Of a stretch of 64,000 bases of DNA, positions 3,683-63,257 are shown one piece after another. Both the position numbers and the translations under genes were made by a program. Every line of letters starts with the position of its first letter. Position 1 is the first letter of the stretch. The notes beneath the pieces were generated by a model. That model searched no databases. It saw nothing but the letters and a program-made list of their open reading frames with translations, and was not told the DNA's origin. Source of the DNA: Leptolyngbya sp. PCC 6406 (GTDB lineage: Bacteria; Cyanobacteriota; Cyanobacteriia; Phormidesmidales; Phormidesmidaceae); assembly GCF_000332095.2 (NCBI RefSeq), contig NZ_KI913949.1, positions 2,484,602-2,548,601 of the forward strand. Reading direction: 5' to 3'.

Positions 3683-6349
3683 TCACATCATGAGTTGGAA
3701 CAAGAAAATTGTAAATCCAACCATGAGCATGAGATGGGGCAGATTGCTAAGCACGGTGCGTTTGGTAATGCGTAACAGCGGATAGACACTGAAAACCAGA
3801 GCGGAGAGCACCGTCACTCCCTGGAGAAAAGTTGCCACATCGGTACTCCAGGTGAGGGTCGGCAAGCCTGTACCGCTAAAGCCCAGGGTTCGTGCTAAAA
3901 CTGGCAGAATTTGACCTGCTTCTGTCATGGCCGCTGGAATATAGTGGGCTAGGTTGGCGGCTAGGGCAAAGGGCAGGTAGGCGTAGATAACGGTTAGGTA
4001 GGGGGGCTGCCCAGGGTCTAGGCGGCGGGCGATCGCGTGGGTCAAATAGGTCGCCATAGCTGGAAGGCTGAGCAGGGCCAGTGCGATCGCGGTACTGCTC
4101 AGAAGATGGTCAGCATCAATGGGGATAGCAGGGTACCCCAATCCAGCTAAGATCCTTTGACTGTGATGCATCAACACCCCGCCTAAAAGCAGCCATAACA
4201 GCGCAGCTTCGGCCCAGAATCCCTGGTGGTTGTCCAGCAAATCTGAGGTAGGAAACCGTAAATTAAGCTGCACTGAACGATGGGGGCAGGCTTTCAGGCA
4301 GGTCATGCACAGGACACAGTCGCGGTTATCTTGCAACTTTGCCGGGTGCGAATAGAGCGGGCACCCCCCAGTCGCCTGCCCTTCGTTAGGCAGGGCATCG
4401 GCAAAGGTGACGGGGGTGGCGCTGCTGCCCTTGTAGCAGCCAAAGGTGCTGCACTGGCTGCCGCAGACCTGCTGGGTAGAGCGCAACTCCACCATGGCCA
4501 GCTTGGCAAACATGCCATTCATGCCGCCGATGGGGCAGAGGTAGCGGCACCACAGTCGCCGCTCATAGATCAGGCTACAGATTACCGCCCCCGCCGTAAT
4601 CGCCAGCAGTAGCCATGCCGAGAGATAGGCGTGGTGGGGCAAATCCCAGAGCTTTTCCCAGAGGTAAATCACCACAAAGCCGCCGAAGAGGATCCAGGCT
4701 CCCCAGCGGTTGAGCCACTGAGTCGGCCAGTGGAGCTGCTGGCGTGGAAACAGCCAGAGGGAGAACCGGCGCAGCCATTCCGCCGTGATCATAAAGGGGC
4801 AGACGGCACACCAGAGCCGACCAATAAAGACAAAGAGCAGCAGATATCCCGGCCACCACCAGGCCCAAAAAAAATTTAGTGTGATGCTGCTGTCTCGGGT
4901 TTGTGGCCCTAGGAACCCGGCTAAGGTGACGGGCACAAAAACCGCCATCATCACGATCCACAGTCCTTCGGGGTACCAGCGGCTGAGCAAAATCTGCCGC
5001 AGCCAGGGCAACTGGGTCAGCAAATCAACCCGAAAGGCATTTTTGGCCGATTGTACCGACCACAGGGTCTGCTCAGGAATCACCGTTTGCCCCGGTGGTG
5101 TCATGATCACTGCCCGGTGCAAAATTTCTGCTAGTTCGGTCATGTTGCCGGGATAGTCGTAGCTGATCAGGCGACGCAGATCCGACTGATCTAGGGTCAG
5201 CGGCGGGCGGTTTTGGGCTTGGGTAACTTGGGTGAGAAAGTGGTGGGCAAAGTCTGGAATGTCCGCCTTGCGCTGGGGCAGGCTAAATAGTTTGATGGCA
5301 ATGGGCTCTACCCCTGGTAGCACGAGCTTTTCAGGAGATGCCAATATTAAGCGCACCCAAGACTGAACTGGTTTGGGCGATTCGCTGGATGCGGCATTAG
5401 GCAGAAGGTTTCTGGTGTTGCAGTAGTGAGCTATGCGATCGCGGTCTTGCCCCTTCAACATCTGGAGATTGCTCAGTAGCAATGTCCCCCGCTCCAGCAG
5501 TTCAATCAGACCTAGTACACTGCCGAGTCGGCCAAATAGGCGGTCGGTGTCGAGGCCACCATCCGCTGTGCGCGGGAGCTGGGCACAATCCATCTCCACA
5601 AAAGGTTGGTCTGCTAGGCCAGAGCGGCTATGGATCAGACCGGCTAAAAAGGTCTTGCCAGTGCCCGACGGCCCTTGCAGGACTACGGGTTGGAGCGTCG
5701 CGGTAGCCTGATCAATGCTTTCCTTCAGCTTTTGGCTGAACTTGCTGCTGCCGAGGATAGTTTCTCCGGTGGGCACGGCATGGATGTAGTCTCGCAACCC
5801 CTGGATGCGGCGTTGCTCTTGGGCAATACGGATACTGAAGGCATTGAGGTCTTGGGCTAGCAGGGCATTAAATAGGTGCTCAAGCTCGGTGTACTGCTGC
5901 ATTAGCTGCCGAAACTGAGGCTGGGGCAAAAACCAGATTTCGCTGGCTGTCAGGGCGATTGCCTGGGTTTGGTGTCTGGCACTGTCGGGGTTGGCCAGCA
6001 GTGACACATAGCCAAAAAGTTCGCCAGCACTGCGCTGGCGAATCAGTGATTTACCAATAGGAGAAAGCCGATCAACCTCAACGGCTCCCCACTTCAGCAG
6101 ATATAGCCCTAAGGAGGGTTGCCCTTCTCGATAGATCAGTGTGCCGGGTTCTACCTTGAGCAGGTGGAGCGATCGCGCCAGATCTTGTTGGGCCGGTTCC
6201 GGTAGCTGCCCCCACAGACGATGAAACCGCAGCCAGTTAAAGCACGCCTCAATGAGGGCGAAATCCTTGGGGGGCAACCCCTCCAGGCCCATCCCCAGAG
6301 GGTGATGATCTAGGTCTACAGGGGGAGGTGAGGGAGGGAGAGAAACCAT
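3683..6349 (-). CDS. Cyclic-nucleotide-binding / sigma54-type AAA+ / NapH-NosR-like iron-sulfur membrane fusion protein
   Basis: The 888-aa protein has three parts. Residues ~40-165 are a CRP-like cyclic-nucleotide-binding domain. Residues ~195-430 are an AAA+ domain of the NtrC type with a clear Walker A (GPSGTGKT, 226-233). Residues ~460-888 are a polytopic membrane part with NapH/NosR-like cysteines: C514/C517, C601/C605, C629/C633/C638, C663, and C678-C681-C684-C688 as a ferredoxin CxxCxxCxxxCP. The AAA+ part is degenerate: where NtrC proteins have GAFTGA and a Walker B acidic pair, this one reads LFGRLGSVLGLIELLERG and LLLSNLQ. It therefore should not remodel sigma54 and no DNA-binding domain follows. 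A membrane redox sensor or electron-transfer protein under nucleotide control is the likeliest role (inference). Confidence 0.8.
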   Translation of the reverse strand: MVSLPPSPPPVDLDHHPLGMGLEGLPPKDFALIEACFNWLRFHRLWGQLPEPAQQDLARSLHLLKVEPGTLIYREGQPSLGLYLLKWGAVEVDRLSPIGKSLIRQRSAGELFGYVSLLANPDSARHQTQAIALTASEIWFLPQPQFRQLMQQYTELEHLFNALLAQDLNAFSIRIAQEQRRIQGLRDYIHAVPTGETILGSSKFSQKLKESIDQATATLQPVVLQGPSGTGKTFLAGLIHSRSGLADQPFVEMDCAQLPRTADGGLDTDRLFGRLGSVLGLIELLERGTLLLSNLQMLKGQDRDRIAHYCNTRNLLPNAASSESPKPVQSWVRLILASPEKLVLPGVEPIAIKLFSLPQRKADIPDFAHHFLTQVTQAQNRPPLTLDQSDLRRLISYDYPGNMTELAEILHRAVIMTPPGQTVIPEQTLWSVQSAKNAFRVDLLTQLPWLRQILLSRWYPEGLWIVMMAVFVPVTLAGFLGPQTRDSSITLNFFWAWWWPGYLLLFVFIGRLWCAVCPFMITAEWLRRFSLWLFPRQQLHWPTQWLNRWGAWILFGGFVVIYLWEKLWDLPHHAYLSAWLLLAITAGAVICSLIYERRLWCRYLCPIGGMNGMFAKLAMVELRSTQQVCGSQCSTFGCYKGSSATPVTFADALPNEGQATGGCPLYSHPAKLQDNRDCVLCMTCLKACPHRSVQLNLRFPTSDLLDNHQGFWAEAALLWLLLGGVLMHHSQRILAGLGYPAIPIDADHLLSSTAIALALLSLPAMATYLTHAIARRLDPGQPPYLTVIYAYLPFALAANLAHYIPAAMTEAGQILPVLARTLGFSGTGLPTLTWSTDVATFLQGVTVLSALVFSVYPLLRITKRTVLSNLPHLMLMVGFTIFLFQLMM

Positions 6350-8763: not shown

Positions 8764-9036
8764 CTATATCCCGACCATATAGTCTTTGCAGGCCGATCTC
8801 CTCAGAATATGGGTTGTCTTTACCCCCACCCACTCATAGCACTCTAAGCTCAACAAATCACAGCCGGTACAGTCGGCACACTTCTCGGGAAGGGGCAAAG
8901 GGCGAATACGTCCCTTGCGGCTGAGTTTGGTCAGCATCGGTCTGAGTGCCTGACTGTCGGTATGAAAGTGCAGAGACAGGTCGGTAATAGAAACAATGCC
9001 GTGGTTGGCGATGTAGGTTTGAACGTCAAAAAGCAT
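8764..9036 (-). CDS. feoC: FeoC-like transcriptional regulator
   Basis: The 90-aa winged-helix protein starts at the ATG at 9036, 38 bp after the feoB stop on the same strand. Residues ~1-50 form the helix-turn-helix (IVSITDLSLHFHTDSQALRP, then LTKLSRKGRIRPL). A Cys cluster follows: C53, C56, C59 and C66 (CADCTGCDLLSLEC), as in FeoC proteins that bind an iron-sulfur cluster. FeoC family members modulate FeoB or feo expression in response to iron or oxygen. The third position in a feoA-feoB-feoC operon supports the call. Confidence 0.9.
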   Translation of the reverse strand: MLFDVQTYIANHGIVSITDLSLHFHTDSQALRPMLTKLSRKGRIRPLPLPEKCADCTGCDLLSLECYEWVGVKTTHILRRSACKDYMVGI

Positions 9037-9074
9037 GGTGGGATGTTGGTATGGGGAGGACCGTTTCTCTGCCC

Positions 9075-11408
9075 TTATCGCCCGTCTAGCACTACCATCC
9101 GCCGTCGCTGGGCGGGTCGAGAGTAGCGCATGGCGACGATAGTGGTGATGGCAACGCCGATCAATCCCAGGATCCAGGCGGCTGAGCTGCCGGGGTGTTG
9201 AGAAAAGGTCATCACCTGGTAGTACATGACCGCACTCCAGTAGGCGATGCAGGTGGTCCAGAGGCCAACAAAGACGGTCCATCCGGTATTGGTTTCGCGG
9301 TAGACAGCCCCCATGGCGGCTACGCAGGGAAAGTACATCAGCACGAACAGCAGGTAGGCAAAGGCCCCAGTCCGCCCGTCAAAGCGCAGGGCCATTTGGC
9401 CAAAGGTGGTGTGGGCAACGGCTTGTTCGGCGGCGGCGGTTTCGATATCGCTAATGGAGCCGACCGAGAGGCCAAGGGGGTCGAGCACCGTACCGGAGAG
9501 GGTAGCTAGGTTGGTGGGGATGGTGGCAAAGGCGGCACCAATATTGCCGAAGAAATCAAAGGTCTCGTCGCCCTGGTCCACGCCCCCAGCAGCGGCCTCA
9601 TCTCTGGCCAGTTGGCCATAGAGAGCGTCCAGGGTTCCCACTACGGCTTCTTTGGCAAAGCCTCCCGTAAAGATGCCGACGGTGGCGGGCCAATTGTCCT
9701 GGGTGAGGCCCATGGGGACAAAGGCGGGGGTAATGCTCTGGCTAAGGGCGCTGAGCACAGAGTTTTCGCTGTCTTCATTGCCAATAGAACCATCGGTACC
9801 GATGGAATTCAGTAGGCTGAGTACCATCACCATCACCACGATCACCCGTCCCGCTCTGAGAATAAAGGCTTGCAGTCGTTCCCAGGTGCGGAGCAGTACG
9901 CCTTTGAGCGTGGGTCGATGGTAGGTGGGTAGCTCCATCACAAAGGGGGCGGCCTCCCCGCTGAGCAGGGTGTATTTCATAATCAGTCCAGTGACGATGG
10001 CGACCCCCATACCGATGAGATACAGCGCGAACACCACATTTTGTCCGGCCCTGGGAAAGAAGGCGGCGGCGAACAGGGCATAGACCGGCAGGCGGGCACC
10101 GCAGGACATGAACGGGTTCATCAAGATAGTGAGAATGCGATCGCGCCGACTCTCCAGGGTCCGGGTCGCCATAATGGCGGGCACGTTGCAGCCAAAACCC
10201 ACCAGCATCGGCACAAAGGATTTCCCCGGTAGCCCCACAAAACGCATAAAGCGATCCATCACAAAGGCAGCGCGAGCCATATAGCCGCTGTCTTCTAACA
10301 GGGCCATAAATAAAAACAGACAGGCAATCACGGGGATAAAGGTAGCCACGATCTGAATCCCGCCACCCATGCCGTTAGCAAGCACCACCTGGACAATGTC
10401 GGGTACTCCGATCGTCGCTAGCAGGTGGCCAAAGCCCTCGACAAAAACGGTGCTAAAGAGAATGTCGAAAAAGTCGATAAAGGCGCTGCCCACGTTAATG
10501 GCAAACATAAACAGCAGGTACATCACTCCCAAAAAGATGGGAATGCCTAGCCAGCGATTTAGCACGATCTGATCGATCTGGTCGGAGCGCGTCAGGCTGA
10601 CCTGGCGCGGACGGGTCGCCACGTCGCTCACCAGGCGGTGGGCGTAGCCATAGCGACTGTCGGCCACGGCGATGTCAATATCGTCTCCCAGCACCCGGTG
10701 AATGCGGTGGCGCTGTTCGGCTACCAGGGGCAGTAGGTCATTAGACGGGTGGGGACCATGGCTGTCGTCGTATTCCAGTAGCTTCAGCGCTCTCCAGCGA
10801 TCTCGGGGAGTAGGGTCGCCTGTGCCAGCGATCGCCGGGGTGAGTACTGCCAACGCCTCTTCAATCAGCGCGGGGTATACCACTCGGGCGGCGGGGCGAT
10901 AGGGGCTCACCAAAAATTCGTTCAGTACGGCCTTCAGTGCGTCCAAGCCCTGCCCCCGAGAGGCCACTATCGGCACCACCGGACAGCCCAACCGCGCCGA
11001 TAACAACTGCGGATTGACACGGATGCCGTGCTCCTGTGCCACATCGATCATATTGAGTACCACCACCAGGGGCAGCCCCATCTCTAGAATTTGGGTGGTG
11101 AGGTAGAGGTTGCGCTCTAGGTTCGAGGCATCGACGATATCCACCACCACCTGGGCAGTCTCAGAAAGCAGATAGTCACGGGCGATCGCTTCATCCACGC
11201 TGCCCTCGTCCTCTGAGTCAATGGCGTAGATACCAGGCAGGTCTACAACGGTGATAGTGCGATCGCAGTAGCGGTAGCTGCCTTCCTTGCGATCGACAGT
11301 GACCCCAGGCCAGTTGCCCACCCGCTGGTTAGCCCCTGTTAAGCCGTTAAAAAGCGTTGTTTTGCCACAGTTGGGGTTGCCAATCAGGGCGATTGTCCAG
11401 TCTGCCAT
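9075..11408 (-). CDS. feoB: Ferrous iron transporter FeoB
   Basis: The 777-aa protein is read from the ATG at 11408 (MADWTIALIG). The frame continues 15 codons upstream, but the G1 motif GNPNCGKT at residues 10-17 fits a normal FeoB N-terminus with this start. G3 appears as DLPG and G4 as NMID. The C-terminal half is a polytopic membrane domain with two Gate regions, including the SCGARLPVY motif whose Cys is conserved in FeoB. FeoB imports Fe(II) across the inner membrane, coupled to its N-terminal G domain. It lies between feoA (107 bp upstream) and feoC. Confidence 0.97.
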   Translation of the reverse strand: MADWTIALIGNPNCGKTTLFNGLTGANQRVGNWPGVTVDRKEGSYRYCDRTITVVDLPGIYAIDSEDEGSVDEAIARDYLLSETAQVVVDIVDASNLERNLYLTTQILEMGLPLVVVLNMIDVAQEHGIRVNPQLLSARLGCPVVPIVASRGQGLDALKAVLNEFLVSPYRPAARVVYPALIEEALAVLTPAIAGTGDPTPRDRWRALKLLEYDDSHGPHPSNDLLPLVAEQRHRIHRVLGDDIDIAVADSRYGYAHRLVSDVATRPRQVSLTRSDQIDQIVLNRWLGIPIFLGVMYLLFMFAINVGSAFIDFFDILFSTVFVEGFGHLLATIGVPDIVQVVLANGMGGGIQIVATFIPVIACLFLFMALLEDSGYMARAAFVMDRFMRFVGLPGKSFVPMLVGFGCNVPAIMATRTLESRRDRILTILMNPFMSCGARLPVYALFAAAFFPRAGQNVVFALYLIGMGVAIVTGLIMKYTLLSGEAAPFVMELPTYHRPTLKGVLLRTWERLQAFILRAGRVIVVMVMVLSLLNSIGTDGSIGNEDSENSVLSALSQSITPAFVPMGLTQDNWPATVGIFTGGFAKEAVVGTLDALYGQLARDEAAAGGVDQGDETFDFFGNIGAAFATIPTNLATLSGTVLDPLGLSVGSISDIETAAAEQAVAHTTFGQMALRFDGRTGAFAYLLFVLMYFPCVAAMGAVYRETNTGWTVFVGLWTTCIAYWSAVMYYQVMTFSQHPGSSAAWILGLIGVAITTIVAMRYSRPAQRRRMVVLDGR

Positions 11409-11515
11409 AGGGATCCTCCGGGAAAAGGAATGGGTTGCAGGTGTCAGGTTCAAGGGTGCAAGCGGCGCTGGGTGGGCAGGTGAGGTGAGGCGCAGGGCCA
11501 GCTTTGAGCCCTGCT

Positions 11516-12184
11516 CTAATCGGTCGTCACCTTGACTTTCAGGGCAGATGCCTCACCTTTGCGCAGGCTGAGTTTAAAGCCCCGGACTTCAATTTCAATT
11601 GGGTCGCCCATAGGGGCCTGACGGGTGACGGTGAACTGGGTGCCGGGGGTGAGCCCCATCGACAACAGCTTTTCCCGATAGGGGCGTGGCCCTTTTTCGT
11701 AGCCCAGAATGTGGCCCGATTGACCCACGGCCAAGGCACCCAAGTGCAGGGGAGCGGTCATAACGGCGGCACCCGTTGCAGCCTGTGAAGGGGCAAAGGT
11801 GGGATCAATCGCCAGATGAGCAGTGGTTACGATGACCCGGTGGGCCATGCCGGCCCCCAGGCCCAAGCGGCAGCCTTGCAGCCCGACAACCACCGCACCG
11901 CTCGCCGTGCGGCTCACCAGGGTAATCTCGGCCCCCTGAACAATACCTAGATCTGTGAGACGGCGCACCATACGGTGACCGCCCTGAATTTGCCAGACCC
12001 AAAGGCGATCGCCCATCGATGCCATGGCCAAGGGCAAACGGCCACCAGCGGCTTTGGCAGACTCACCGTCTACCGATAGAAGCGGCACATCAGGTAGGTC
12101 AGCCGTGCTGCCCGCAAAAGTCATTGGCCCCAGCGGGGCTTTTCCAGTAGCGTCAGTTGCGGCCTCAGCAGAAAACGAATCCAT
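11516..12184 (-). CDS. feoA: FeoA protein with two tandem FeoA domains
   Basis: The product has 222 aa from the ATG at 12184, which is preceded by GGAG; upstream in-frame codons lack an ATG. Typical FeoA is a single ~75-aa SH3-like domain. Here residues ~55-120 (GHRMVRRLTDLGIVQGAEIT) and ~150-222 (GPRPYREKLLSMGLTPGTQF) each carry the L-x-x-M/L-G-L/I-x-x-G FeoA signature, so the protein is a tandem duplication. A ~50-residue low-complexity N-terminal extension precedes them. FeoA assists FeoB in Fe(II) uptake. It is the first gene of the feo operon, behind a Fur-box-like palindrome. Confidence 0.93.
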   Translation of the reverse strand: MDSFSAEAATDATGKAPLGPMTFAGSTADLPDVPLLSVDGESAKAAGGRLPLAMASMGDRLWVWQIQGGHRMVRRLTDLGIVQGAEITLVSRTASGAVVVGLQGCRLGLGAGMAHRVIVTTAHLAIDPTFAPSQAATGAAVMTAPLHLGALAVGQSGHILGYEKGPRPYREKLLSMGLTPGTQFTVTRQAPMGDPIEIEVRGFKLSLRKGEASALKVKVTTD

Positions 12185-12214
12185 GGGTAGCTCCAATGCT
12201 AAATCGAGCAAAAT

Positions 12215-13160: not shown

Positions 13161-14147
13161 TTAGGGTTGATGACTTAGGGCCGCAGGCGGTGTGGCTAGC
13201 GAATGATCAGGTGGCACCCCCTGCCACAGGGCTGTGCTGAGGTAGCGCTCCCCCGCGCTGGGTTGGATGATCACAATGCGCTGGTTGCGGTAGCGATCGT
13301 GTTGGCCGATCTGTAACCCGGCATAGACCGCCGCCCCGGTTGAAATACCGCCCATAATGCCTTCTTGTTGGGCCAATTGTCGTCCAGTTTCGTAGGCTTG
13401 GGCCTCGGTGACCGTAACAATTTCATCGATCAAATCTGCTCGTAAGACATCGGGAATAAATCCGGCCCCAATGCCTTGGAGATCATGCGCCCCTGCCGGT
13501 TGACCGCTCAGTACGGCACTGTGGGCCGGTTCAACTGCCACAATCTGAAGGTTAGGATTTTGCTGCTTGAGGTACTGTCCAGCCCCTGTGAGGGTGCCTC
13601 CTGTTCCCACACCCACCACTAAAACCGCCAGATCCCCATCGGTATCCTGCCAGATTTCAGGGCCGGTGGTTTCATAGTGAATTTTAGGATTGGCGGGATT
13701 GCTGAATTGGTGGGGTGAGAAGGCATTCGGCAGCGTGGTGAGGAGGTAATTGGCGTGGGCGATCGCCCCTGGCATATCGTCTGCGGCGGGAGTCAAGATC
13801 ACCTCCGCTCCATAGGCTTGCACGATTTGCTGTCGTTCCTGACTCATATTGTCGGGCATGGTTAGAATCAGGCGATAGCCCTTGGCAGCACACACCATGG
13901 CTAACCCAATACCTGTATTGCCGGAGGTTGCCTCCACGATCGTCGAGGTTCCCGGTTGAACCAAGCCTGCCTGTTCGGCTTCGAGCATCATACTGACGGC
14001 GATTCGATCTTTCACAGACTTAGCCGGATTCATGCCTTCTAGCTTCAGCACAATTTCGGCGATACAGCCACACTGCTGGGGCAAGCGTTGCAGCTTGACT
14101 AGCGGGGTGTGACCTATAACTTCAGTAATGTCACTATGGATGGGCAT
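13161..14147 (-). CDS. cysK: Cysteine synthase (O-acetylserine sulfhydrylase)
   Basis: The 328-aa, fold-type-II PLP enzyme makes cysteine from O-acetylserine and sulfide. The PLP lysine is in NPAKSVKDR (K46), the substrate loop is TSGNTG (~residues 74-79), and the phosphate-binding loop is GVGTGGTLTG (~residues 182-191). PSAGERYLST near the C-terminus is also typical of CysK. Length and motif order fit CysK/CysM rather than cystathionine beta-synthase, as there is no CBS domain. The gene stands alone between MITE-rich gaps. Confidence 0.95.
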   Translation of the reverse strand: MPIHSDITEVIGHTPLVKLQRLPQQCGCIAEIVLKLEGMNPAKSVKDRIAVSMMLEAEQAGLVQPGTSTIVEATSGNTGIGLAMVCAAKGYRLILTMPDNMSQERQQIVQAYGAEVILTPAADDMPGAIAHANYLLTTLPNAFSPHQFSNPANPKIHYETTGPEIWQDTDGDLAVLVVGVGTGGTLTGAGQYLKQQNPNLQIVAVEPAHSAVLSGQPAGAHDLQGIGAGFIPDVLRADLIDEIVTVTEAQAYETGRQLAQQEGIMGGISTGAAVYAGLQIGQHDRYRNQRIVIIQPSAGERYLSTALWQGVPPDHSLATPPAALSHQP

Positions 14148-17991: not shown

Positions 17992-20670
17992 ATGGATAAA
18001 TCGTCAGTAGATATTCTATGGGTCATTGTTTGCGCCAGCCTAGTGTTCCTGATGCAAGCTGGGTTTCTGTGCCTAGAGGCAGGCTCCACCCGCAGTAAAA
18101 ACACCATTAACGTCGTCATCAAAAATATCTCCGATGCCGGAGTGTCAGTTCTCTTCTTCTGGCTCTTTGGCTATGGCCTCATGTTTGGCGCTACCCACCT
18201 GGGCTGGTGGGGCACCACCAGAATGGCTCCAGAAGTGGGGCAGGGGGAGGTCTGGCCCGTGGCCTTTTTCCTATTCCAGGCCATGTTTTGCAGCACCGCC
18301 GTCACCATCGTGTCGGGAGCCGTCGCAGAGCGGATGCGGTTCAACATGTATCTCGCGATCGCGCTTTTGGTATCGGGCCTAATCTATCCCATCTTTGGCC
18401 ATTGGGCCTGGAACGGTCTCGACAGCAGCCATAGTTTCGGCTGGTTAGGGGCCATAGGCTTCGTGGACTTTGCCGGATCCACCGTAGTCCACAGCGTGGG
18501 GGGCTGGGTGTCCCTAGCCGCCGTGATCATCGTCGGTCCCCGCATTGGCCGCTTTTCCCCCAAACGGCGACGGCCCCTCATGGTGGGCTACGACCTCCCC
18601 TTAGCTCTACTGGGAGCCCTACTGCTATGGGTGGGCTGGTTCGGTTTCAACGGTGGCAGCGTCCTCGCCCTCAATGACCAAGTACCAGGAATCATCGTCA
18701 ACACCCTCCTCGCAGGGTCAGCGGGGTTGGTGACACCAATTGTGCTGAACCTTGGACGGCATCGACTGGTGCCCGTCACCGCCGTCATGAACGGTTCACT
18801 AGCAGGGTTAGTGGCCATCACCGCCAACTGCCATGTCGTGACAGCAGGAGCATCCATCCTGATTGGAGCCATTGGCAGCCTGTGGATGTTGGCCGCAGAA
18901 CGGCTACTAGAACGCCTCCACATTGACGATGCCGTGGGAGCCATTCCCGTCCACCTCAGCGCCGGCATCTGGGGCACCTTGGCAGTGGCCATCTTTGGCG
19001 ATCTCGACCTGATCGGCACTGGGCTCAGCCGTCCTGCCCAACTCGGGACACAGATTCTAGGCATCGGTATGTGTGGAGTCTGGGCCTTTGGCTTCACCTA
19101 CCTGGTGCTATGGCAGGTCAACCGGCGCTGGCCCCTGCGAGTCCGTCGCAAACATGAGCACATCGGCCTGAACATAGCGGAGCACGGAGCTGTTAGTGAC
19201 CTAGTGGATCTGTTCAATACCATGCGTCGCCAAGAGCGCACGGGGGATCTGAGCCTGCGAGTACCCGTGGAATTGTTTACCCCGGTAGGCCAGATTGCGG
19301 CCCGCTACAACCGCGTCATTGCCGCCCTAGAGCAGGCCCTAGCCCGTACCGACGTGATCGTGGAAAAGGCGATTGAGGCCATCGTCACCGTCTCCCAGCA
19401 AGATCTACGGATTCGTTCCGCTAACCCCGCCGTCGCCAAGATCTTTGGCCAGTCGGATCAACAGGTGCAAAACCAGCCCTTAATCACCCTAATCGGCCTA
19501 GAATTCGCCGATGGAGAGGAGGAGGAGGCATCGATGCTGCGCGATTTCCTGATCCAGGCCAGTACCGACGGTAGTCCCTATGAAATTTTGGGACGTCGCC
19601 GCAGCGGCAGCACCTTTCCTATTGAAGTCACAGTGGCCCGCCTACGCACGGGGCGGGAAAACTGCTACACCCTGATTCTGCGGGACATTACCCTACGGAA
19701 ACAGGCAGAGGAAGCCCTGCAAGAGGCAGAGGCCAAGGATCTCAAAACCCGCCAGTTAGAAAAGACTCTGAAGGAACTGCAACAAACCCAAATTCAGCTC
19801 ATCCACAGCGAAAAGATGTCCAGCCTGGGGCAGTTGGTAGCGGGGGTTGCCCACGAGATCAATAACCCCATCAACTTTATCTATGGCAACCTCAGCTATG
19901 TAGAGGACTACTTCAAGGACTTGATAGATCTGGTCAATGGCTACCGCGCCGAACTGGTGAACGTCCCCCCCCGGTTGCAATCCAAAACCAAGGCAGTGGA
20001 TGTGGAATATCTATTGCAGGACTTGCCGAAAATCCTGACATCGATGCGGGGTGGGGCTGAGCGGATTACCGAAATTGTCAAATCCCTACGGGACTTCTCC
20101 CACGTGGGGGGCGCAGATCTCAAACAGGTCGATATCCATCAAGGATTAGACAGCACCCTCACCATCCTTGGGGGGCGGCTCAAGGCCAAGGGCAAACAGG
20201 TGGAGATTCAAGTGCTGCGAGACTATGGTGATTTGCCCAAGGTGGACTGTTATGTGGGACAACTCAACCAAGTGTTTATGAACCTACTGACCAATGCCAT
20301 CGACGCCCTAGAGGAAAAGATGGAGTCTTACCCCAGCCGCCCCGATGGGGAACTGGTGGATGAAGCGGGCAAGGTCTTTGTTCCCCAAATTATTCTGCGG
20401 ACGGAAACGCTGGAGGAGGAGCGAGTCCGCATTCATGTGACGGATAATGGTGTTGGTATTCCCGATCATGTGCAGCGGCGAATGCTAGACCCTTTCTTTA
20501 CCACCAAGCCAGTGGGCAAGGGCACGGGCTTGGGGATGGCCATCAGCTACCAAATCGTTGTCGATCGCCATCAAGGTCACCTCCAGTGCCTCTCTACGCC
20601 GGGGCAGGGCACCCGGTTTGTCATCGAGATTCCGGTGGAACAGCCGGTCACGGCCCCGGCCATGGCTTAA
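17992..20670 (+). CDS. Ammonium transporter-PAS-histidine kinase fusion
   Basis: The 892-aa protein has an Amt channel at residues ~1-385 with 11 or so helices. It keeps both pore histidines (in FAGSTVVHSVGGW and GAIPVHLSAGIWG) and a QAGFLCLEAG N-terminal signature. A linker of the type seen in cyanobacterial Amt/cyclase hybrids (HIGLNIAEHGAVSDLVDL) leads to a PAS domain (~430-570). A coiled coil follows (~575-610), then a dimerisation/phosphoacceptor region with H621 in GVAHEINNP and an HATPase domain (DNGVGIPD, KGTGLGMAIS). It probably senses or transports ammonium and signals to an unlinked response regulator. It is followed by the NIL-ferredoxin gene 85 bp on. Confidence 0.93.
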   Translation: MDKSSVDILWVIVCASLVFLMQAGFLCLEAGSTRSKNTINVVIKNISDAGVSVLFFWLFGYGLMFGATHLGWWGTTRMAPEVGQGEVWPVAFFLFQAMFCSTAVTIVSGAVAERMRFNMYLAIALLVSGLIYPIFGHWAWNGLDSSHSFGWLGAIGFVDFAGSTVVHSVGGWVSLAAVIIVGPRIGRFSPKRRRPLMVGYDLPLALLGALLLWVGWFGFNGGSVLALNDQVPGIIVNTLLAGSAGLVTPIVLNLGRHRLVPVTAVMNGSLAGLVAITANCHVVTAGASILIGAIGSLWMLAAERLLERLHIDDAVGAIPVHLSAGIWGTLAVAIFGDLDLIGTGLSRPAQLGTQILGIGMCGVWAFGFTYLVLWQVNRRWPLRVRRKHEHIGLNIAEHGAVSDLVDLFNTMRRQERTGDLSLRVPVELFTPVGQIAARYNRVIAALEQALARTDVIVEKAIEAIVTVSQQDLRIRSANPAVAKIFGQSDQQVQNQPLITLIGLEFADGEEEEASMLRDFLIQASTDGSPYEILGRRRSGSTFPIEVTVARLRTGRENCYTLILRDITLRKQAEEALQEAEAKDLKTRQLEKTLKELQQTQIQLIHSEKMSSLGQLVAGVAHEINNPINFIYGNLSYVEDYFKDLIDLVNGYRAELVNVPPRLQSKTKAVDVEYLLQDLPKILTSMRGGAERITEIVKSLRDFSHVGGADLKQVDIHQGLDSTLTILGGRLKAKGKQVEIQVLRDYGDLPKVDCYVGQLNQVFMNLLTNAIDALEEKMESYPSRPDGELVDEAGKVFVPQIILRTETLEEERVRIHVTDNGVGIPDHVQRRMLDPFFTTKPVGKGTGLGMAISYQIVVDRHQGHLQCLSTPGQGTRFVIEIPVEQPVTAPAMA

Positions 20671-30308: not shown

Positions 30309-31793
30309 TTGGAGTTTAGACTAAGGCAAATTTTCTCCCTGAGGATAGGGAGAGAAGAAATAGCGATTTGAGGGCGATCGGAGAGCTAAGCGACCGTTTG
30401 CGACGTTTTTTTGGGTCGACTAGGGCGTTTTCTGACCGTGGGATAGCGAGGTTTGCGGTTACGGTTTTGACCTTTGGGCCACCCAGGGGACTTTCCACGG
30501 GGTTTGGGAGCCTGGGCGGGAGAGCCCAACCGGGCTAAAAGTGAGGCAATGGAATCAGCGACCCGTCCGGGGGTAAGGATAGGCAGCTTTTTCTGCCAGG
30601 GCAGAGGGGCATCCTGCACAAGGTCTCGGGCGAGCCAGAGTTGCCAGGTGGCCAAGGGCATCAGATCGCTCCAGCGCTCGGCGGCTTTGGGTTCACCGAG
30701 TTTGGGCACCATCCAGTGAAGGCGCTGCTTCAAGAATCGGTACCAGTGCTCTAGGGCAAAGCGTCGCAGGTAGCGTTGCCAGAGGTGCTCAAGGTCGGGC
30801 ATCGTGTCGCCGACCCAGACTAACCACAAGGGGCGAATCGAGCGGGGCTGGCCGTCCTCACCAAGACGTTGAACCTGAATCAGGGTCATGGGATGCGGGG
30901 CGGCTTGGCGAAAATGCATCTGGTGCCAAGCGCGCACCCGCACAGCACCCAATTTCGGATCCACAACCGTCAGGTCTTGGTTAGGCTCTGGCCAGGTTGC
31001 GGGGTCATTAGGCTTGAAACAGTCGCCATGAACTCGGGGCCGTCCCCGACCTGAATAGGGGGGCGGGGCACCCCAGAGATTGCGGTTAGAGCGCAGACGC
31101 ATCAGCTTGTCGGCCTTAATGTCCGCTGTTTTCAGCACAAAGCTGGCACAGCCATATTCGCTATCCCATAGGCTCAGCGGACGATGGGGTAAGGACTGGC
31201 ACACTTGTCTGAGTTGAAAGGCGGCTAAGCTAATCGGGCTCTCCCAACTGGTGATCCGCTCATGGCGTAGGGGCAGCGCCCAACTGCCTTCGGCTTCAGG
31301 AACCCACGCTAAGGTGCTATACCCTTGACCTAGACTCACCGGACCTAAACTCCCGCCCCCATTGGCCTGATGCTCATGGGTGCGCTCCCGTAACCGTTTC
31401 GCCTCTGGCCGTGGCCATCCGGTATGGTCTCCCGCTAGCACAATCGGGCCATCGCTCGGGAGCTGCTCCAGATAGAGGCGCATCAGCCGTTGCCGTTGCG
31501 GGCGACTATCTTGCAGGGCCTCATAAGCACTCGGCCACTTTCGTCGAAATAGCGGGGACTGCGAGAGTTCCACAAAGCTAGAGAGATGACGGCTGGTCAG
31601 CACCGCATCAACGAGTTCAAAGGTTGCGTCGCGTGCCCGGCCCAGATACTTATGGGCGCGGTGCCGGAATCCATACAAGCTATCGTAAGTCATAGGCCGG
31701 TGCCGAGATGGGTTGTACTTTCTCAGCTTCGGCTAAAAAGCGGCCCGAGCCTTGCTCTGCCGCTTTTTTCTATGGCTTTAGTCTAAACTCCAG
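30309..31793. mobile_element. Complete IS element (1485 bp) with 7-bp target duplication
   Basis: The terminal inverted repeats are TTGGAGTTTAGACTAAGGC (left) and CTGGAGTTTAGACTAAAGCC (right, reverse complement). TAGCTCA is duplicated at 30302-30308 and 31794-31800. The element carries one transposase gene. It split a gene remnant whose frame closes up when the IS is removed. Confidence 0.9.
30386..31693 (-). CDS. DDE transposase of the 1485-bp IS
   Basis: The 435-aa transposase shows the three acidic positions as LAGDHTGWPRP (Asp), LSLWDSEYGC (Asp) and FALEHWYRFLKQRL (Glu with the downstream K/R helix). The C-terminal ~50 residues are very basic (PKPRGKSPGWPKGQNRNRKP). The E-H-W-x-R-F-x-K pattern and length resemble IS4/IS701-like enzymes; the exact family is not certain. 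It appears intact and the IS has both ends, so it may be active. Confidence 0.88.
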   Translation of the reverse strand: MTYDSLYGFRHRAHKYLGRARDATFELVDAVLTSRHLSSFVELSQSPLFRRKWPSAYEALQDSRPQRQRLMRLYLEQLPSDGPIVLAGDHTGWPRPEAKRLRERTHEHQANGGGSLGPVSLGQGYSTLAWVPEAEGSWALPLRHERITSWESPISLAAFQLRQVCQSLPHRPLSLWDSEYGCASFVLKTADIKADKLMRLRSNRNLWGAPPPYSGRGRPRVHGDCFKPNDPATWPEPNQDLTVVDPKLGAVRVRAWHQMHFRQAAPHPMTLIQVQRLGEDGQPRSIRPLWLVWVGDTMPDLEHLWQRYLRRFALEHWYRFLKQRLHWMVPKLGEPKAAERWSDLMPLATWQLWLARDLVQDAPLPWQKKLPILTPGRVADSIASLLARLGSPAQAPKPRGKSPGWPKGQNRNRKPRYPTVRKRPSRPKKTSQTVA

Positions 31794-32520: not shown

Positions 32521-33431
32521 GAGGGTGTCTGAAAAGCTGGAATGTAGGTATGAATTAGCACGTTAGTCGCCTTAACATGACTCGAATATTGGCCACATAA
32601 ATCCATGCCTCAGCGGTCTCTGGTAGGCGCTCATAGTCTTTACTCAAGCGGCGGCAAAAAGTAAACCAGCCAAATGTGCGCTCCACCACCCACCGCTTGG
32701 GTAACAGCACAAATCCCTGCGCACAGTCGGGGCGCTTGATCACCTCAATCACCCATCGAAAGCGGTCCATGATCTCTTTCATGAAATCGTTACCGCTATA
32801 TCCCCCATCAACCCAAATGACACACAGGCGAGTGAACCACTGACTAACCTGATGCATTTTTTCTAGCACCTTTCGTGCGCCATCCCGCTCAGGGAGACTC
32901 GCTGCGGTAACCACAACCATCAGCACTAAACCCATTGTGTCGACCACCACGTTTCGCTTCCGACCTTTGACCTTTTTGTTTGCATCGAAGCCGACCGACT
33001 CCGAAATGTAGACATCGCTGTTCACCGACTGACTATCCATCACCGCTGCACTGGGAGACGCTTCGCGCCCCTCCGTTAACCGCACCAACTCCCGCAATCG
33101 GTGATTGATGTGTTCCCACACCCCATCATTGCGCCATTGGCGAAAATAATGGTAGACCGTTTTGGCCTTCGGGAAATCATGGGGTAAGCACCGCCACTTG
33201 GTGCTATTGTCCAGAACGTACAGAATCGCATTGACCACTTCTCGCATATCCGTGCTCCGAGGTCGTCCACCAGGCTTCGCCGGAGGAATCAAGAGAGAGA
33301 GAATATCCCATTGTTCATCAGTCAAATCGGTGGGGTAGGATAATCGCATTGCCCTCAAAAACCCTATCAAGTGTACTTACTGACTGATAGAGTAGCGTTT
33401 TTGAGGGCCTTTCTACTTCTCAGACACCCTC
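32521..33431. mobile_element. Complete IS5-family element with TTA duplication
   Basis: The 911-bp element has inverted ends GAGGGTGTCTGAAAAG and GAGGGTGTCTGAGAAG. It is flanked by TTA at 32518-32520 and 33432-33434, a 3-bp target duplication as expected for several IS5 subgroups. Confidence 0.9.
32555..33349 (-). CDS. IS5-family transposase
   Basis: The 264-aa product is read from the ATG at 33349 (GAGGG 5 nt upstream); upstream in-frame codons start with TTG. The N-terminal part is the DUF4096-like region (YPTDLTDEQWDILSLLIPPA). The DDE triad appears as AVMDSQSVNSD, WVDGGYSGND and WVVERTFGWFTFCRRLSKDYE. Full length with no frameshift, so potentially functional. Confidence 0.93.
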   Translation of the reverse strand: MRLSYPTDLTDEQWDILSLLIPPAKPGGRPRSTDMREVVNAILYVLDNSTKWRCLPHDFPKAKTVYHYFRQWRNDGVWEHINHRLRELVRLTEGREASPSAAVMDSQSVNSDVYISESVGFDANKKVKGRKRNVVVDTMGLVLMVVVTAASLPERDGARKVLEKMHQVSQWFTRLCVIWVDGGYSGNDFMKEIMDRFRWVIEVIKRPDCAQGFVLLPKRWVVERTFGWFTFCRRLSKDYERLPETAEAWIYVANIRVMLRRLTC

Positions 33432-38165: not shown

Positions 38166-40499
38166 ATGGTTGCTACTATTACAGGCGTTTCTTTTTTGAT
38201 CACGGTCCTTTATGACTGCAAAGAAACGATTGGAAAAATCAATCGTACTTGTGCAGAAAAGGGGTTGCCGCCAGCTTTTTATGTACTGCAAGACTCAAAA
38301 TTGATTTCTGGAAATACAGATTACTGTTTCCAAGGATTTGGCATAAACATTGACTCGGTGCTGCCGCCAAAATTGAGTCTAACATTTTGGGTTCATTATC
38401 TGATTGATTCTGCTGCCCATGTTAGCCTTGGTAAGTTCGCTTGTCCGCTCAAAGTGTTAGACACCAGTGCTTTTGAGATGCTTAGGAGTCTAGAACGTGT
38501 TCCCTTTGCCGATCTTCAATTTAATGAAGCCAGCGATGATTTAGGTGATCTTCCATTTTTGGGACAACCTTCTGAAAGTGCCGAACAGTCCACAGACGTA
38601 GATCTAGAGGTGGAATCAGACCTAGACCAACCAGGGTATTTCGAGGAAAGTTTTGTTGAGGCAGAAAGAATTCCCGATCCGGAGAACTTTACCTTACGAG
38701 CGCTTCAAAATACAGTCTTAAAGATTTCTTCCATCCCCTCACCAGAGCTATCTGATGATGAAAAGGTCAATTTTAGTGCGCAGTCAACAGTTCCATTAGT
38801 CTCATTTGAAGACTCGAAAGATCATCTCAAGGTGACCTTAGCAAACACAACATTAGGTGGCCGTAAAACTTGGGTTGCCTATCGGGAACACGTTGAGATT
38901 CTAAAACCTGACGGTACCAGACTTGTTGGACAGTATAGAGTTGGTGATGCCCTTCCTAAGCAGGTGAATCTCTCGGTCCCTTGGTATAGTCAGCGAGATA
39001 ACAAGTATCACCCCTCAAGTACCTGCAACGTCACTTGTGTAGCTATGATTTTGGCCTATTTTGGTGTTCGACCAAAATCTGATGTGCAACTTGAAGACCA
39101 GCTTTACTTAGAAGTTACAGAGGGTGGGCGTAACCATGGTGACAGACTGTTACACGAACAATTGAGTCAATTGATGAAAGACTATGGCCTGAGTACCAAG
39201 TTCTCAACCCAGACTTCCTGGCAGGAGATTAAGACTCATCTTGCCAATGGCAATCCCGTCATTATGAGTGGATACTTCACCAGCAGTGGCCATATTATCG
39301 TCCTACGAGGGTATGACGAGACTGGTTTTTGGGTTAACGATCCATGGGGCGAGTGGTTTACTAACGGCTATCAAAATAAATCAGGGGAGAACTTGCATTA
39401 CTCCTACGCATTGTGTCGTCGCTGTAGCCGCAGTAATGATGTCACCTGGGCACACTTACCTGCCGATCCTAAGCGCACCTACCAGCTCCCAGTGTTGACC
39501 CAAGCCAATACTGTCCCCACTGAAGTGCCTGTTGCCTCTAGCTTGACGCCAGCAGAGCTTTCAAAGCGGGCATCCCAGGCAATTGTCAATGTTTTTGAGA
39601 CAGGTAATGCCCTTGGAGACTATAGCTCTGTTGTATGTCATCGGCATGATCTAGGTGGGTTAACCTATGGGCGGTCGCAAACAACAATCAACAGTGGCAA
39701 TCTGTACCTCTTAGTCAAGGCATATTGTGAGGCGGATGGGGCTGCGTTTGCAGATGAGCTACTTCCATATCTTGAGAAGCTAGCCAAAAAATCAGCAACA
39801 CTGAAATGTGATTCTGGCAGCAGTGATCTCAGAGAAATCACGGTAATTCTCAGAAAAGCAGGGACTGATCCTGTAATGCGATCAACCCAGGATAACTTCT
39901 TTGATCGCGCCTATTGGACACCAGCGGTTAATGCTGCCAGAAATATCGGCATCCAAACAGCCTTGGGCAAAGCAGTGGTTTACGATAGCTTTATCCATGG
40001 CTCCTGGGGGGCAATGCGCGATCGGACCAATCAAAGCCATGGCACTGTCAGCCAAATTGGAGAAAAGGCTTGGGTTCAAGCCTATATCAAGACCCGTCGC
40101 CATTGGTTGGGGAACCACAGCAATCCACTGCTCAGAAATACGGTATATCGCATGGATGCTTTTAACCAACTCATCCAAGTCAGCAACTGGGATCTAGTAT
40201 TGCCCTTCTCAGTGCGTGGATGTCGGATTGATCAGGCGGTGATGGAGAAAGGTGGTCATGGCCGAGCTGAACCCAGTAGTTTCCGAATACTGAGGCTAGT
40301 CGCACCGCATATGTCTGGAGAAGATGTACGACGAGTACAGCAGGCATTGAAAGATAAGGGCTACTTCTCACCAGAGGAAACGATTGATGGTATCTTCGGG
40401 CCTAACACTGAACGTAAGGTGAAAGCCTTTCAACAGAATCACCAGTTGAGAGTAGATGGCATTATCGGGCTACAAACTTGGAATGCATTGGGACTGTAG
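38166..40499 (+). CDS. C39-like cysteine peptidase / chitosanase-like / peptidoglycan-binding protein
   Basis: The 777-aa protein has AAGGAG 8 nt before the ATG. Residues 1-~250 match nothing I recognise. Residues ~265-415 are a Peptidase_C39-like domain with C287 in SSTCNVTCVAMI, H376 in SSGHIIVLRGYD and D392 in VNDPWG. Residues ~460-690 look like a chitosanase/lysozyme-type glycosidase (AIVNVFETGNALGDYSSV with E478 and D485, then LTYGRSQTTINSGNL). Residues ~700-777 are a peptidoglycan-binding domain (VRRVQQALKDKGYFSPEETI, DGIFGPNTERKVKAFQQNHQ). No signal peptide is visible, so export would need a non-Sec route or lysis. The gene stands alone with its own terminator. A cell-wall-degrading effector or lysin is the best guess. 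Confidence 0.8.
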   Translation: MVATITGVSFLITVLYDCKETIGKINRTCAEKGLPPAFYVLQDSKLISGNTDYCFQGFGINIDSVLPPKLSLTFWVHYLIDSAAHVSLGKFACPLKVLDTSAFEMLRSLERVPFADLQFNEASDDLGDLPFLGQPSESAEQSTDVDLEVESDLDQPGYFEESFVEAERIPDPENFTLRALQNTVLKISSIPSPELSDDEKVNFSAQSTVPLVSFEDSKDHLKVTLANTTLGGRKTWVAYREHVEILKPDGTRLVGQYRVGDALPKQVNLSVPWYSQRDNKYHPSSTCNVTCVAMILAYFGVRPKSDVQLEDQLYLEVTEGGRNHGDRLLHEQLSQLMKDYGLSTKFSTQTSWQEIKTHLANGNPVIMSGYFTSSGHIIVLRGYDETGFWVNDPWGEWFTNGYQNKSGENLHYSYALCRRCSRSNDVTWAHLPADPKRTYQLPVLTQANTVPTEVPVASSLTPAELSKRASQAIVNVFETGNALGDYSSVVCHRHDLGGLTYGRSQTTINSGNLYLLVKAYCEADGAAFADELLPYLEKLAKKSATLKCDSGSSDLREITVILRKAGTDPVMRSTQDNFFDRAYWTPAVNAARNIGIQTALGKAVVYDSFIHGSWGAMRDRTNQSHGTVSQIGEKAWVQAYIKTRRHWLGNHSNPLLRNTVYRMDAFNQLIQVSNWDLVLPFSVRGCRIDQAVMEKGGHGRAEPSSFRILRLVAPHMSGEDVRRVQQALKDKGYFSPEETIDGIFGPNTERKVKAFQQNHQLRVDGIIGLQTWNALGL

Positions 40500-62227: not shown

Positions 62228-63257
62228 TAGACCTGTTGTGAAATAGGGGATAATAGCCTCTAGAGCTAGTTAACCCGGTTGTGCCGTGCTGAACCTCCAA
62301 CGCGCCCTCAAGAGTGACCGCCTGCTGCGGGCTTTGACCGGTTTGAACCGGAAAGCCTTTGAGGAACTGGAATCCACCTTCGCTCAGGTGTTGGCCCATG
62401 CAGAGGTTCCCCGTCGGAGTCCCTTACCCCGTCAACGGGCCACCGGAGCCGGACGAAAACCCAATTTAGCAACGGTCGAGACCAAACTGTTCTTCATCTT
62501 GTTCTACTTCAAGGTGTATCCGACCTTTGATTTGGCCGGTGTCCTGTTTGACCTGGATCGCGCTCAGGCGAATCGTTGGATGCATCGCCTCCAACCACTG
62601 CTGGAGGAAGCCCTGGGTGAAAAAATGGCGTTGCCGAAACGCAAATTGACCAGTCTTGAAGAATTTGTCGAAGCCTTTCCCGAGGTGGAACGGGTGATTC
62701 TTGACGGGACTGAACGCCCCATTCAGCGGGCCAAAGACCGGGACCAACAGAAGGAAGATTACTCAGGCAAAAAGAAGCGCCATACCCGCACCCACCTGGC
62801 TGGTGTCGCCCCAGACCGCCAGATTCTCGTATTCAGCACCGCCTATCCCGGTAAGGCGCACGACAAAGGCATTCTCAATAGCGAGGGATGGGCCGAGTGG
62901 ATTCCTGATGACGTCAAAATCCAGGGTGATTCAGGCTTTCAGGGGCTGCAAAACGAGTATGTCAACGTAGAGATTCCACACAAGAAACCTAAGGGCGGAC
63001 AACTCACCGATGAGCAGAAAGCTGAGAATCAAGCCCTCGCCCGAGAACGGGTCGTCGGGGAGCATGCCTTTGCTGGCCTAAAACGCTATGGGATTGCCGC
63101 CCAGGTCTATCGCAATCGCAAAGCGAACTTTGATGACCGCTCCATCTTCACAGCGGCAGGACTCTGGAACTTTTATCTGATGGCCGCTTAACCGAGGGAG
63201 AGAGGAAGGAAGTCGCCCTTGAAGGTTTTGACTGAGCACTATTTCACAACAAGTCTA
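62228..63257. mobile_element. IS element (~1030 bp), IS5/HARBI1-like
   Basis: The inverted ends are TAGACCTGTTGTGAAATAG (left) and TAGACTTGTTGTGAAATAG (right, reverse complement), 18 of 19 matching. They bracket a single intact transposase. The flanks share TTCAAAA-type sequence but no exact target duplication can be fixed; a TA or TNA target is possible. Confidence 0.8.
62286..63191 (+). CDS. IS5-type (DDE_Tnp_4) transposase
   Basis: The 301-aa protein is read from a GTG at 62286. The N-terminal helix-turn-helix-like part contains LTGLNRKAFEELESTFAQVL. The DDE residues appear as VILDGTERPIQR (D), GDSGFQG (D) and VVGEHAFAGLKRYGI (E). The GTERP motif and the SGKKKRHTRTHLAG segment are typical of the HARBI1-like DDE_Tnp_4 group of IS5. 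Intact frame; inverted ends on both sides, so it could be active. Confidence 0.9.
   Translation: MLNLQRALKSDRLLRALTGLNRKAFEELESTFAQVLAHAEVPRRSPLPRQRATGAGRKPNLATVETKLFFILFYFKVYPTFDLAGVLFDLDRAQANRWMHRLQPLLEEALGEKMALPKRKLTSLEEFVEAFPEVERVILDGTERPIQRAKDRDQQKEDYSGKKKRHTRTHLAGVAPDRQILVFSTAYPGKAHDKGILNSEGWAEWIPDDVKIQGDSGFQGLQNEYVNVEIPHKKPKGGQLTDEQKAENQALARERVVGEHAFAGLKRYGIAAQVYRNRKANFDDRSIFTAAGLWNFYLMAA

Follow-up and report, generated by a model that had tools for sequence, protein, structure and literature searches.

A fusion of a cyclic-nucleotide-binding fold, a degenerate NtrC-type AAA+ core and a putative membrane polyferredoxin in cyanobacteria

INTRODUCTION

What does an AAA+ domain of the sigma54-activator type do in a cyanobacterium? 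The question is raised by a gene of Leptolyngbya sp. PCC 6406 that lies in a window of 64,000 nucleotides, the whole stretch of DNA analyzed here, and positions in the window are counted from its first letter. A sequence-only reading of this stretch had described the gene product as a triple fusion of a cyclic-nucleotide domain, an NtrC-type AAA+ domain with a degenerate activator core, and a NapH/NosR-like membrane part. It had pictured the protein as a possible nucleotide-gated device for electron transfer or redox sensing, with nitrate, NO, or redox stress as the conditions of interest.

RESULTS

The triple fusion is real and conserved in cyanobacteria

Positions 3683 to 6349 of the window hold exactly one open reading frame on the minus strand (the strand had not been given before), a complete frame of 888 codons with an ATG start and no internal stop; the same start and length are found in the homologues at loci L008 and L010. 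In a Pfam scan, all parts of the proposed fusion fell within this one 888-residue chain in the order cNMP_binding (residues 65 to 153, E = 7e-17), Sigma54_activat (residues 198 to 317, E = 1e-11), AAA_lid_14 (residues 359 to 428, E = 2e-13), and two copies of Fer4_5 in the membrane part (E = 1e-6), and every match passed its cut-off. The AlphaFold model of the protein has a mean pLDDT of 85.6.

An unusual architecture, and nothing else, would suggest that unrelated genes had been joined by a sequencing or assembly error, and we regard the chance of this as negligible because the architecture is repeated in dozens of independent genomes and in circular plasmids. It is ruled out by full-length homologues of the same architecture besides the window gene, 45 of the window type (clade A) and 48 of a second type (clade B), and by a clade B paralogue in the host genome itself (C1:3886627-3889053), 42% identical to the window protein. 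The host assembly comprises 5.78 Mb and is 99.96% complete. The fusion is thus conserved across the cyanobacterial phylum, and it combines known parts into a new architecture. In the collection of papers searched, we found no description of this architecture or of its sulfide partners (see below).

Relatives with E < 1e-20 were present in 73 of 292 cyanobacterial genomes. Clade A, the window type, is 55 to 90% identical, clade B is ∼40% identical, and a third type from small genomes, clade C, has no CNB domain and starts at the AAA+ core. A quick tree built from the membrane part separated clade A, and likewise clade C, from all other sequences by a branch with full support. When the search for the same architecture that the sequence-only reading had proposed was run, the AAA+ domain, its lid, and Fer4_5 were matched in all 52 members scanned and the CNB domain in 47, the five without it being clade C sequences. 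Of 161 genome loci, the top 80 were all cyanobacterial, and among these loci and the plasmids searched, the full architecture was not seen outside Cyanobacteria, the plasmids there yielding just membrane-only or AAA-only matches.

Several family members depart from the full-length form. The clade C loci L125 to L129, all from small-genome cyanobacteria, encode the CNB-less AAA+ and membrane module with a Walker A that reads GEPGLEKD and with all 12 Cys of the cluster module. A 252-residue frame at L130:1527-2285 (minus strand) runs from a clade B start straight into the C-terminal helices, lacks the AAA+ core and the cluster region, and looks like a collapsed remnant. The clade A genes in L037, L043, L045, L049, L052, and L054 are broken into at least two frames and may be pseudogenes or assembly errors. 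We also note a PNPOx (PdxH-type) gene that adjoins the clade C gene in L127 (2054-2755, identified by eye) and another near the clade B gene in L154 (10595-11287, identified by Pfam).

The AAA+ core has lost its catalytic and sigma54-contact motifs

The NtrC-type core (window 5399-5758, minus strand) and its lid (5066-5275) were compared with solved structures of sigma54 activators. The AAA+ model matched FlrC and NtrC1 with a Z score of 23 and an rmsd of 2.1 to 2.4 over 224 to 228 residues, so the AAA+ fold is genuine. Walker A is intact in the window protein, as the sequence-only reading had stated, with GPSGTGKT at residues 226 to 233 (5651-5674). All 46 clade A sequences keep the GxGK of this motif, and 45 of them also keep the Thr that comes next. 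In clade B this Thr is replaced by Asp in 48 of 48 sequences, which typically read GEPGLEKD, and the same replacement occurs in five clade C sequences.

The remaining motifs bear out the description of a degenerate activator core. Walker B reads TLLLSNLQ at residues 289 to 296 (5462-5485) and has no acidic residue, with S-N in place of D-E; Asn replaces the catalytic Glu in 44 of the 46 sequences from clade A and in 45 of the 48 from clade B. The arginine-finger segment just before the lid, which is FREDLYYRL in NifA, is shortened, contains no Arg, and aligns to a gap followed by VLPGV. GAFTGA is absent from all 93 homologues checked, and no helix-turn-helix family was matched by Pfam in any of the 52 members scanned. 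Judged by its motifs, the core is a pseudo-ATPase from which the Walker B Glu and both arginine fingers are gone. Since Walker A is kept and the catalytic Glu and Arg fingers are lost, the clade A head plausibly binds nucleotide without hydrolyzing it. Clades B and C have probably lost the usual mode of nucleotide binding as well, and the loss of Walker A in them means that nucleotide gating, possible in clade A, is not the mechanism of the whole family.

No sigma54 gene was found in the host genome, and none of 292 cyanobacterial genomes had a match above the rpoN family cut-off, in agreement with the earlier statement that cyanobacteria do not use this factor. In one cyanobacterial genome (G125, C1:411956-412339), a lone fragment matched the sigma54 C-terminal region in part, with E = 8.5e-17, below the cut-off. 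With no sigma54 in the host, the AAA+ domain must serve something other than sigma54 activation, as had been argued. What favors a functional activator of the sigma54 type, or another transcription factor, is that the core is truly of the NtrC1/FlrC fold; with the helix-turn-helix, GAFTGA, the Arg fingers, the Walker B Glu, and rpoN itself all missing, we consider the sigma54 activator refuted and any role of this sort highly improbable. Neither a DNA-binding domain (52 members) nor GAFTGA (93 homologues) was found in the family.

The CNB domain probably does not read a cyclic nucleotide

The N-terminal domain (5891-6157, minus strand) has a genuine CNB fold, its model matching both the PKA regulatory subunit (1cx4) and a Crp/Fnr-type protein (2gau) with Z scores of ∼18.6. 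The Glu of the FGE motif of CNB domains holds the cyclic nucleotide. In the window protein this motif reads FGY, and throughout clade A the Glu position is occupied by Tyr (40 of 46 sequences) or else by His or Cys, and never by Glu. The designation as a CNB domain therefore stands, but a cyclic nucleotide as its ligand is doubtful. By analogy with FNR- and DNR-like proteins, it is more likely that the domain binds something besides cAMP or cGMP, or no ligand at all.

The membrane module carries 12 invariant Cys

Residues 444 to 888 (3686-5020, minus strand) form the membrane module, with about nine transmembrane helices. The sequence-only reading had noted at least ten cluster-type Cys; the count is 12. 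They are arranged as two membrane-edge pairs, C514-x2-C517-P (4799-4810) and C601-x3-C605-P (4535-4549), and eight residues in a ferredoxin-like segment, C629-x3-C633-x4-C638, C663-P, and C678-x2-C681-x2-C684-x3-C688-P (4286-4465). All 12 are conserved in 94 of 94 full-length homologues of clades A and B. In the nine-helix model the Cys-bearing loops all lie on the side of the AAA+ domain, and the pattern of Lys and Arg favors the same side; this predicted topology would place the 12 Cys in the cytoplasm. By number, they would suffice for three [4Fe-4S] clusters. The chain closes with a bundle of five helices (residues 712 to 887, 3689-4216) in which Y789, P793, E810, G812, and Q843 are invariant.

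We compared this module with known families. It is related to NapH (TIGR02163, E = 1e-7), but at 31.6 bits against a cut-off of 213 and, with PRK09477, at 21.6 bits against a cut-off of 234, and the likeness to NosR amounts to just 19 bits against a cut-off of 1,000. The description as NapH/NosR-like thus applies to a relationship with NapH and hardly to NosR. Foldseek found no solved structure matching the module at E < 2, and the best other match, TSPO with a Z score of 6.2 over 127 residues, is at the noise level for helical bundles.

The module also exists without a head. A stand-alone form in Deinococcus ficus aligned over the full length of residues 444 to 888 (28% identity over 460 columns, E = 3e-49) and has all 12 Cys; haloarchaea also have stand-alone forms. 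The genes next to a rhizobial form (hhalign, 98.6%) encode an FTR1 permease, a cupredoxin, and a periplasmic iron protein.

Clade A genes are linked to a dedicated cysteine synthase and to sulfide and low-oxygen genes

A gene for cysteine synthase (CysK) lies at 13161-14147 of the window, on the same strand as the fusion gene. Its product is 67 to 88% identical to the CysK copies linked to other clade A genes and 57% identical to the other CysK of the host. Of 54 clade A loci, 36 encode CysK downstream of the fusion gene and on its strand, compared to 0 of 26 clade B loci (Fisher p = 1e-9, a value that overstates independence and is indicative, because the loci are kin by descent and many are incomplete). 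In 22 of the 36 linked loci the gap between the two genes is at most 50 bp, and the linkage resembles that of an operon. This CysK type (at least 67% identity) occurs in 5 of 292 genomes, all of them among the nine with clade A, and adjoins the clade A gene in four; the window genome is the exception. Here the two genes are ∼7 kb apart, with genes for FeoA, FeoB, a FeoC-like product, MAPEG, DUF2834, and a helix-turn-helix protein between them.

Two further sets of genes recur around clade A. Members of a sulfur set (SQR, ArsR, a persulfide dioxygenase-like metallo-hydrolase, rhodanese, TauE, an extra Rieske protein, and DUF302) were found in 22 of 54 clade A loci compared to 0 of 26 clade B loci, and members of a low-oxygen set (cytochrome bd, HemN, heme oxygenase, PsbA, and a Tll0287-like protein) in 20 of 54 compared to 0 of 26. 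The fullest island, in Waterburya, surrounds the clade A gene with two SQR, two ArsR, the dioxygenase, TauE, DUF302, and CysK genes. Related neighborhoods with copies of CysK, Rieske, and PsbA genes were present on two cyanobacterial plasmids, one of which adds DsrE and rhodanese. Six of 42 long clade A loci had none of the CysK, sulfur, or low-oxygen neighbors. A recurrent neighbor that by eye had seemed to be a heme oxygenase (cluster 24) proved by Pfam to be an aldehyde decarbonylase. No nap, nos, or nir genes were present among the recurrent neighbor clusters identified, and no exact palindromic dyad upstream of clade A genes was common to more than 3 of 45, nor was a conserved promoter motif found there.

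The window genome itself has no close SQR (the best match is 29% identical). A persulfide dioxygenase-like gene, 71% identical, is located elsewhere in it, with the rest of the island missing. Given the distant SQR and the ∼7-kb gap that holds FeoAB, an active sulfide island is not established in this host.

It has been reported that sqr, arsR, and low-oxygen psbA cluster together in cyanobacteria (PMC5061849); a term search of that paper returned neither a protein of the window type nor a cysteine synthase. Clade A travels with a private CysK and with sulfide and low-oxygen genes, which suggests that it serves in electron handling or redox sensing when the cell meets sulfide. The nitrate or NO direction taken in the sequence-only reading is not followed by the neighbors, which instead indicate sulfide, cysteine, and low oxygen.

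Elsewhere in the window, translations inspected by eye pointed to an ammonium transporter fused to sensor and histidine kinase domains (17992-20670, plus strand), a large protein with C39-type peptidase, chitosanase-like, and peptidoglycan-binding repeat parts (38166-40499, plus strand), and transposase-like frames at 30386-31693 and 32555-33370 (minus strand) and at 62286-63191 (plus strand).

The family has been given names of nitrogen and sigma54 regulators

A clade A copy in Aulosira is annotated as nitrogen assimilation regulatory protein, the label also given to Synechocystis slr1529, "ntrX". In L154 (6624-14429) a clade B gene lies upstream of the ScpA and Ffh genes on one strand, and Slr1531 is Ffh (PMC12475003). 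From this gene order, by synteny rather than sequence comparison, slr1529 is probably the clade B orthologue. Its transcript level drops when cells are deprived of iron (PMC3516471) and following exposure to high copper (PMC4182526). A nitrogen-regulator name is unsupported by our findings, and "ntrX" for slr1529 looks wrong; "sigma 54-interacting transcriptional regulator" is likewise a misleading name that can now be corrected.

DISCUSSION

Our best explanation, to which we assign a probability of roughly 45%, is that the window protein is a membrane polyferredoxin, gated by a nucleotide or a ligand, that belongs to the sulfide and low-oxygen response, is paired in clade A with a dedicated CysK, and is not a transcription activator. 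A polyferredoxin related to NapH and FtrD, with some nine helices and 12 Cys predicted to form clusters at the cytoplasmic face, would be controlled by a head made of a CNB sensor and a dead AAA+ domain. In clade A the head would most likely hold ATP or ADP unhydrolyzed, as a switch of conformation or oligomerization. The clusters would most likely shuttle electrons between the quinone pool and a soluble partner of low potential such as ferredoxin, both the direction and the partners being inferred, or else report the redox state to the head. Clade A would be the copy recruited to the sulfide and low-oxygen set, with its partner CysK fixing sulfide into cysteine.

The same head and neighborhood can be read in another way, as those of a membrane-bound sensor of redox state or sulfide that carries out no net electron transfer and whose head recruits or releases a cytosolic partner, possibly CysK or a regulator of the ArsR/MerR type. 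CNB and AAA+ domains are signaling modules, a noncatalytic AAA+ domain fits a switch or scaffold, and CysK and regulator genes adjoin the clade A gene. What argues against a pure sensor is that conservation is highest in the membrane cluster module and not in the head, of which the CNB domain is dispensable in clade C, and that the chain has no recognizable output domain. CysE docks on CysK through a C-terminal Ile. The window protein instead ends in LMM, on what is predicted to be the outside, so docking of the CysE type is unsupported and was rejected as a candidate. On balance we hold a sensor of this kind, the strongest of the alternatives, to be possible but somewhat unlikely.

Iron offers a different direction. 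FeoA, FeoB, and FeoC-like genes lie at 8764-12211 of the window (minus strand), and FeoAB adjoins the clade A gene in L007 as well, by chance or through a link to iron. A maturation or iron-handling factor would feed electrons into iron uptake or Fe-S assembly in the presence of sulfide and Fe(II), with CysK supplying cysteine; the response of the slr1529 transcript to iron deprivation and the homology of the module to the 4Fe-4S protein encoded beside FTR1 and cupredoxin in Rhizobium (FtrABCD-type) would fit such a role. However, at most three clade A loci have a linked FeoB gene compared to 36 with CysK, and the homology to FtrD is at the superfamily level, which makes the iron-handling role improbable in our estimate.

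Returning to the gated polyferredoxin, a bolder version would make it a new class of membrane electron carrier under signal control, in which a dead AAA+ domain of the enhancer-binding type, put to new use in organisms that have no sigma54, gates a polyferredoxin joining the photosynthetic quinone pool to ferredoxin, with one clade devoted to sulfide-driven (anoxygenic or sulfide-tolerant) photosynthesis and equipped with its own cysteine synthase. We think this extension rather unlikely. The link to CysK and sulfide makes the function of clade A testable, and the gene is a knockout target for the cyanobacterial switch between oxygenic and sulfidic conditions. The clade A protein and its private CysK add two linked, undescribed components to a sulfide and low-oxygen set of which sqr, arsR, and low-oxygen psbA were already known. 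An NtrC-type AAA+ domain has persisted in a phylum free of sigma54, where it has lost its catalytic and sigma54-contact parts and is now the head of a putative membrane iron-sulfur protein.

The comparison with known systems places each part of the chain. The window protein shares fold and lid with the sigma54 enhancer-binding AAA+ proteins NtrC, NifA, and FlrC, but has no GAFTGA, Walker B Glu, Arg fingers, or helix-turn-helix, in a host that has no sigma54. It has the fold of cNMP-binding proteins in common with them, whereas their phosphate-binding cassette, FGE...R, has lost its Glu in clade A. Clade B, to which Slr1529 probably belongs, differs from clade A in having neither a functional Walker A nor a CysK/sulfide neighborhood. 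NosR is likewise a membrane polyferredoxin, with weak local similarity, but has an N-terminal FMN-binding domain, which Pfam scans did not detect in proteins of the window type. The FtrD-type and stand-alone 4Fe-4S proteins of Deinococcus and haloarchaea share the membrane module and differ in lacking the CNB and AAA+ domains and in their operon partners; the operon of FTR1, cupredoxin, and periplasmic iron protein is absent from the clade A neighbor clusters and from the window. With the ferredoxin subunits of NapH/MauN quinol dehydrogenases (TIGR02163), the window protein, whose family had no nap genes among the neighbors identified, has in common a four-helix part with CxxCP/CxxxCP at the membrane edge and CxxCxxCxxxCP, to which it adds five C-terminal helices and the CNB-AAA+ head.
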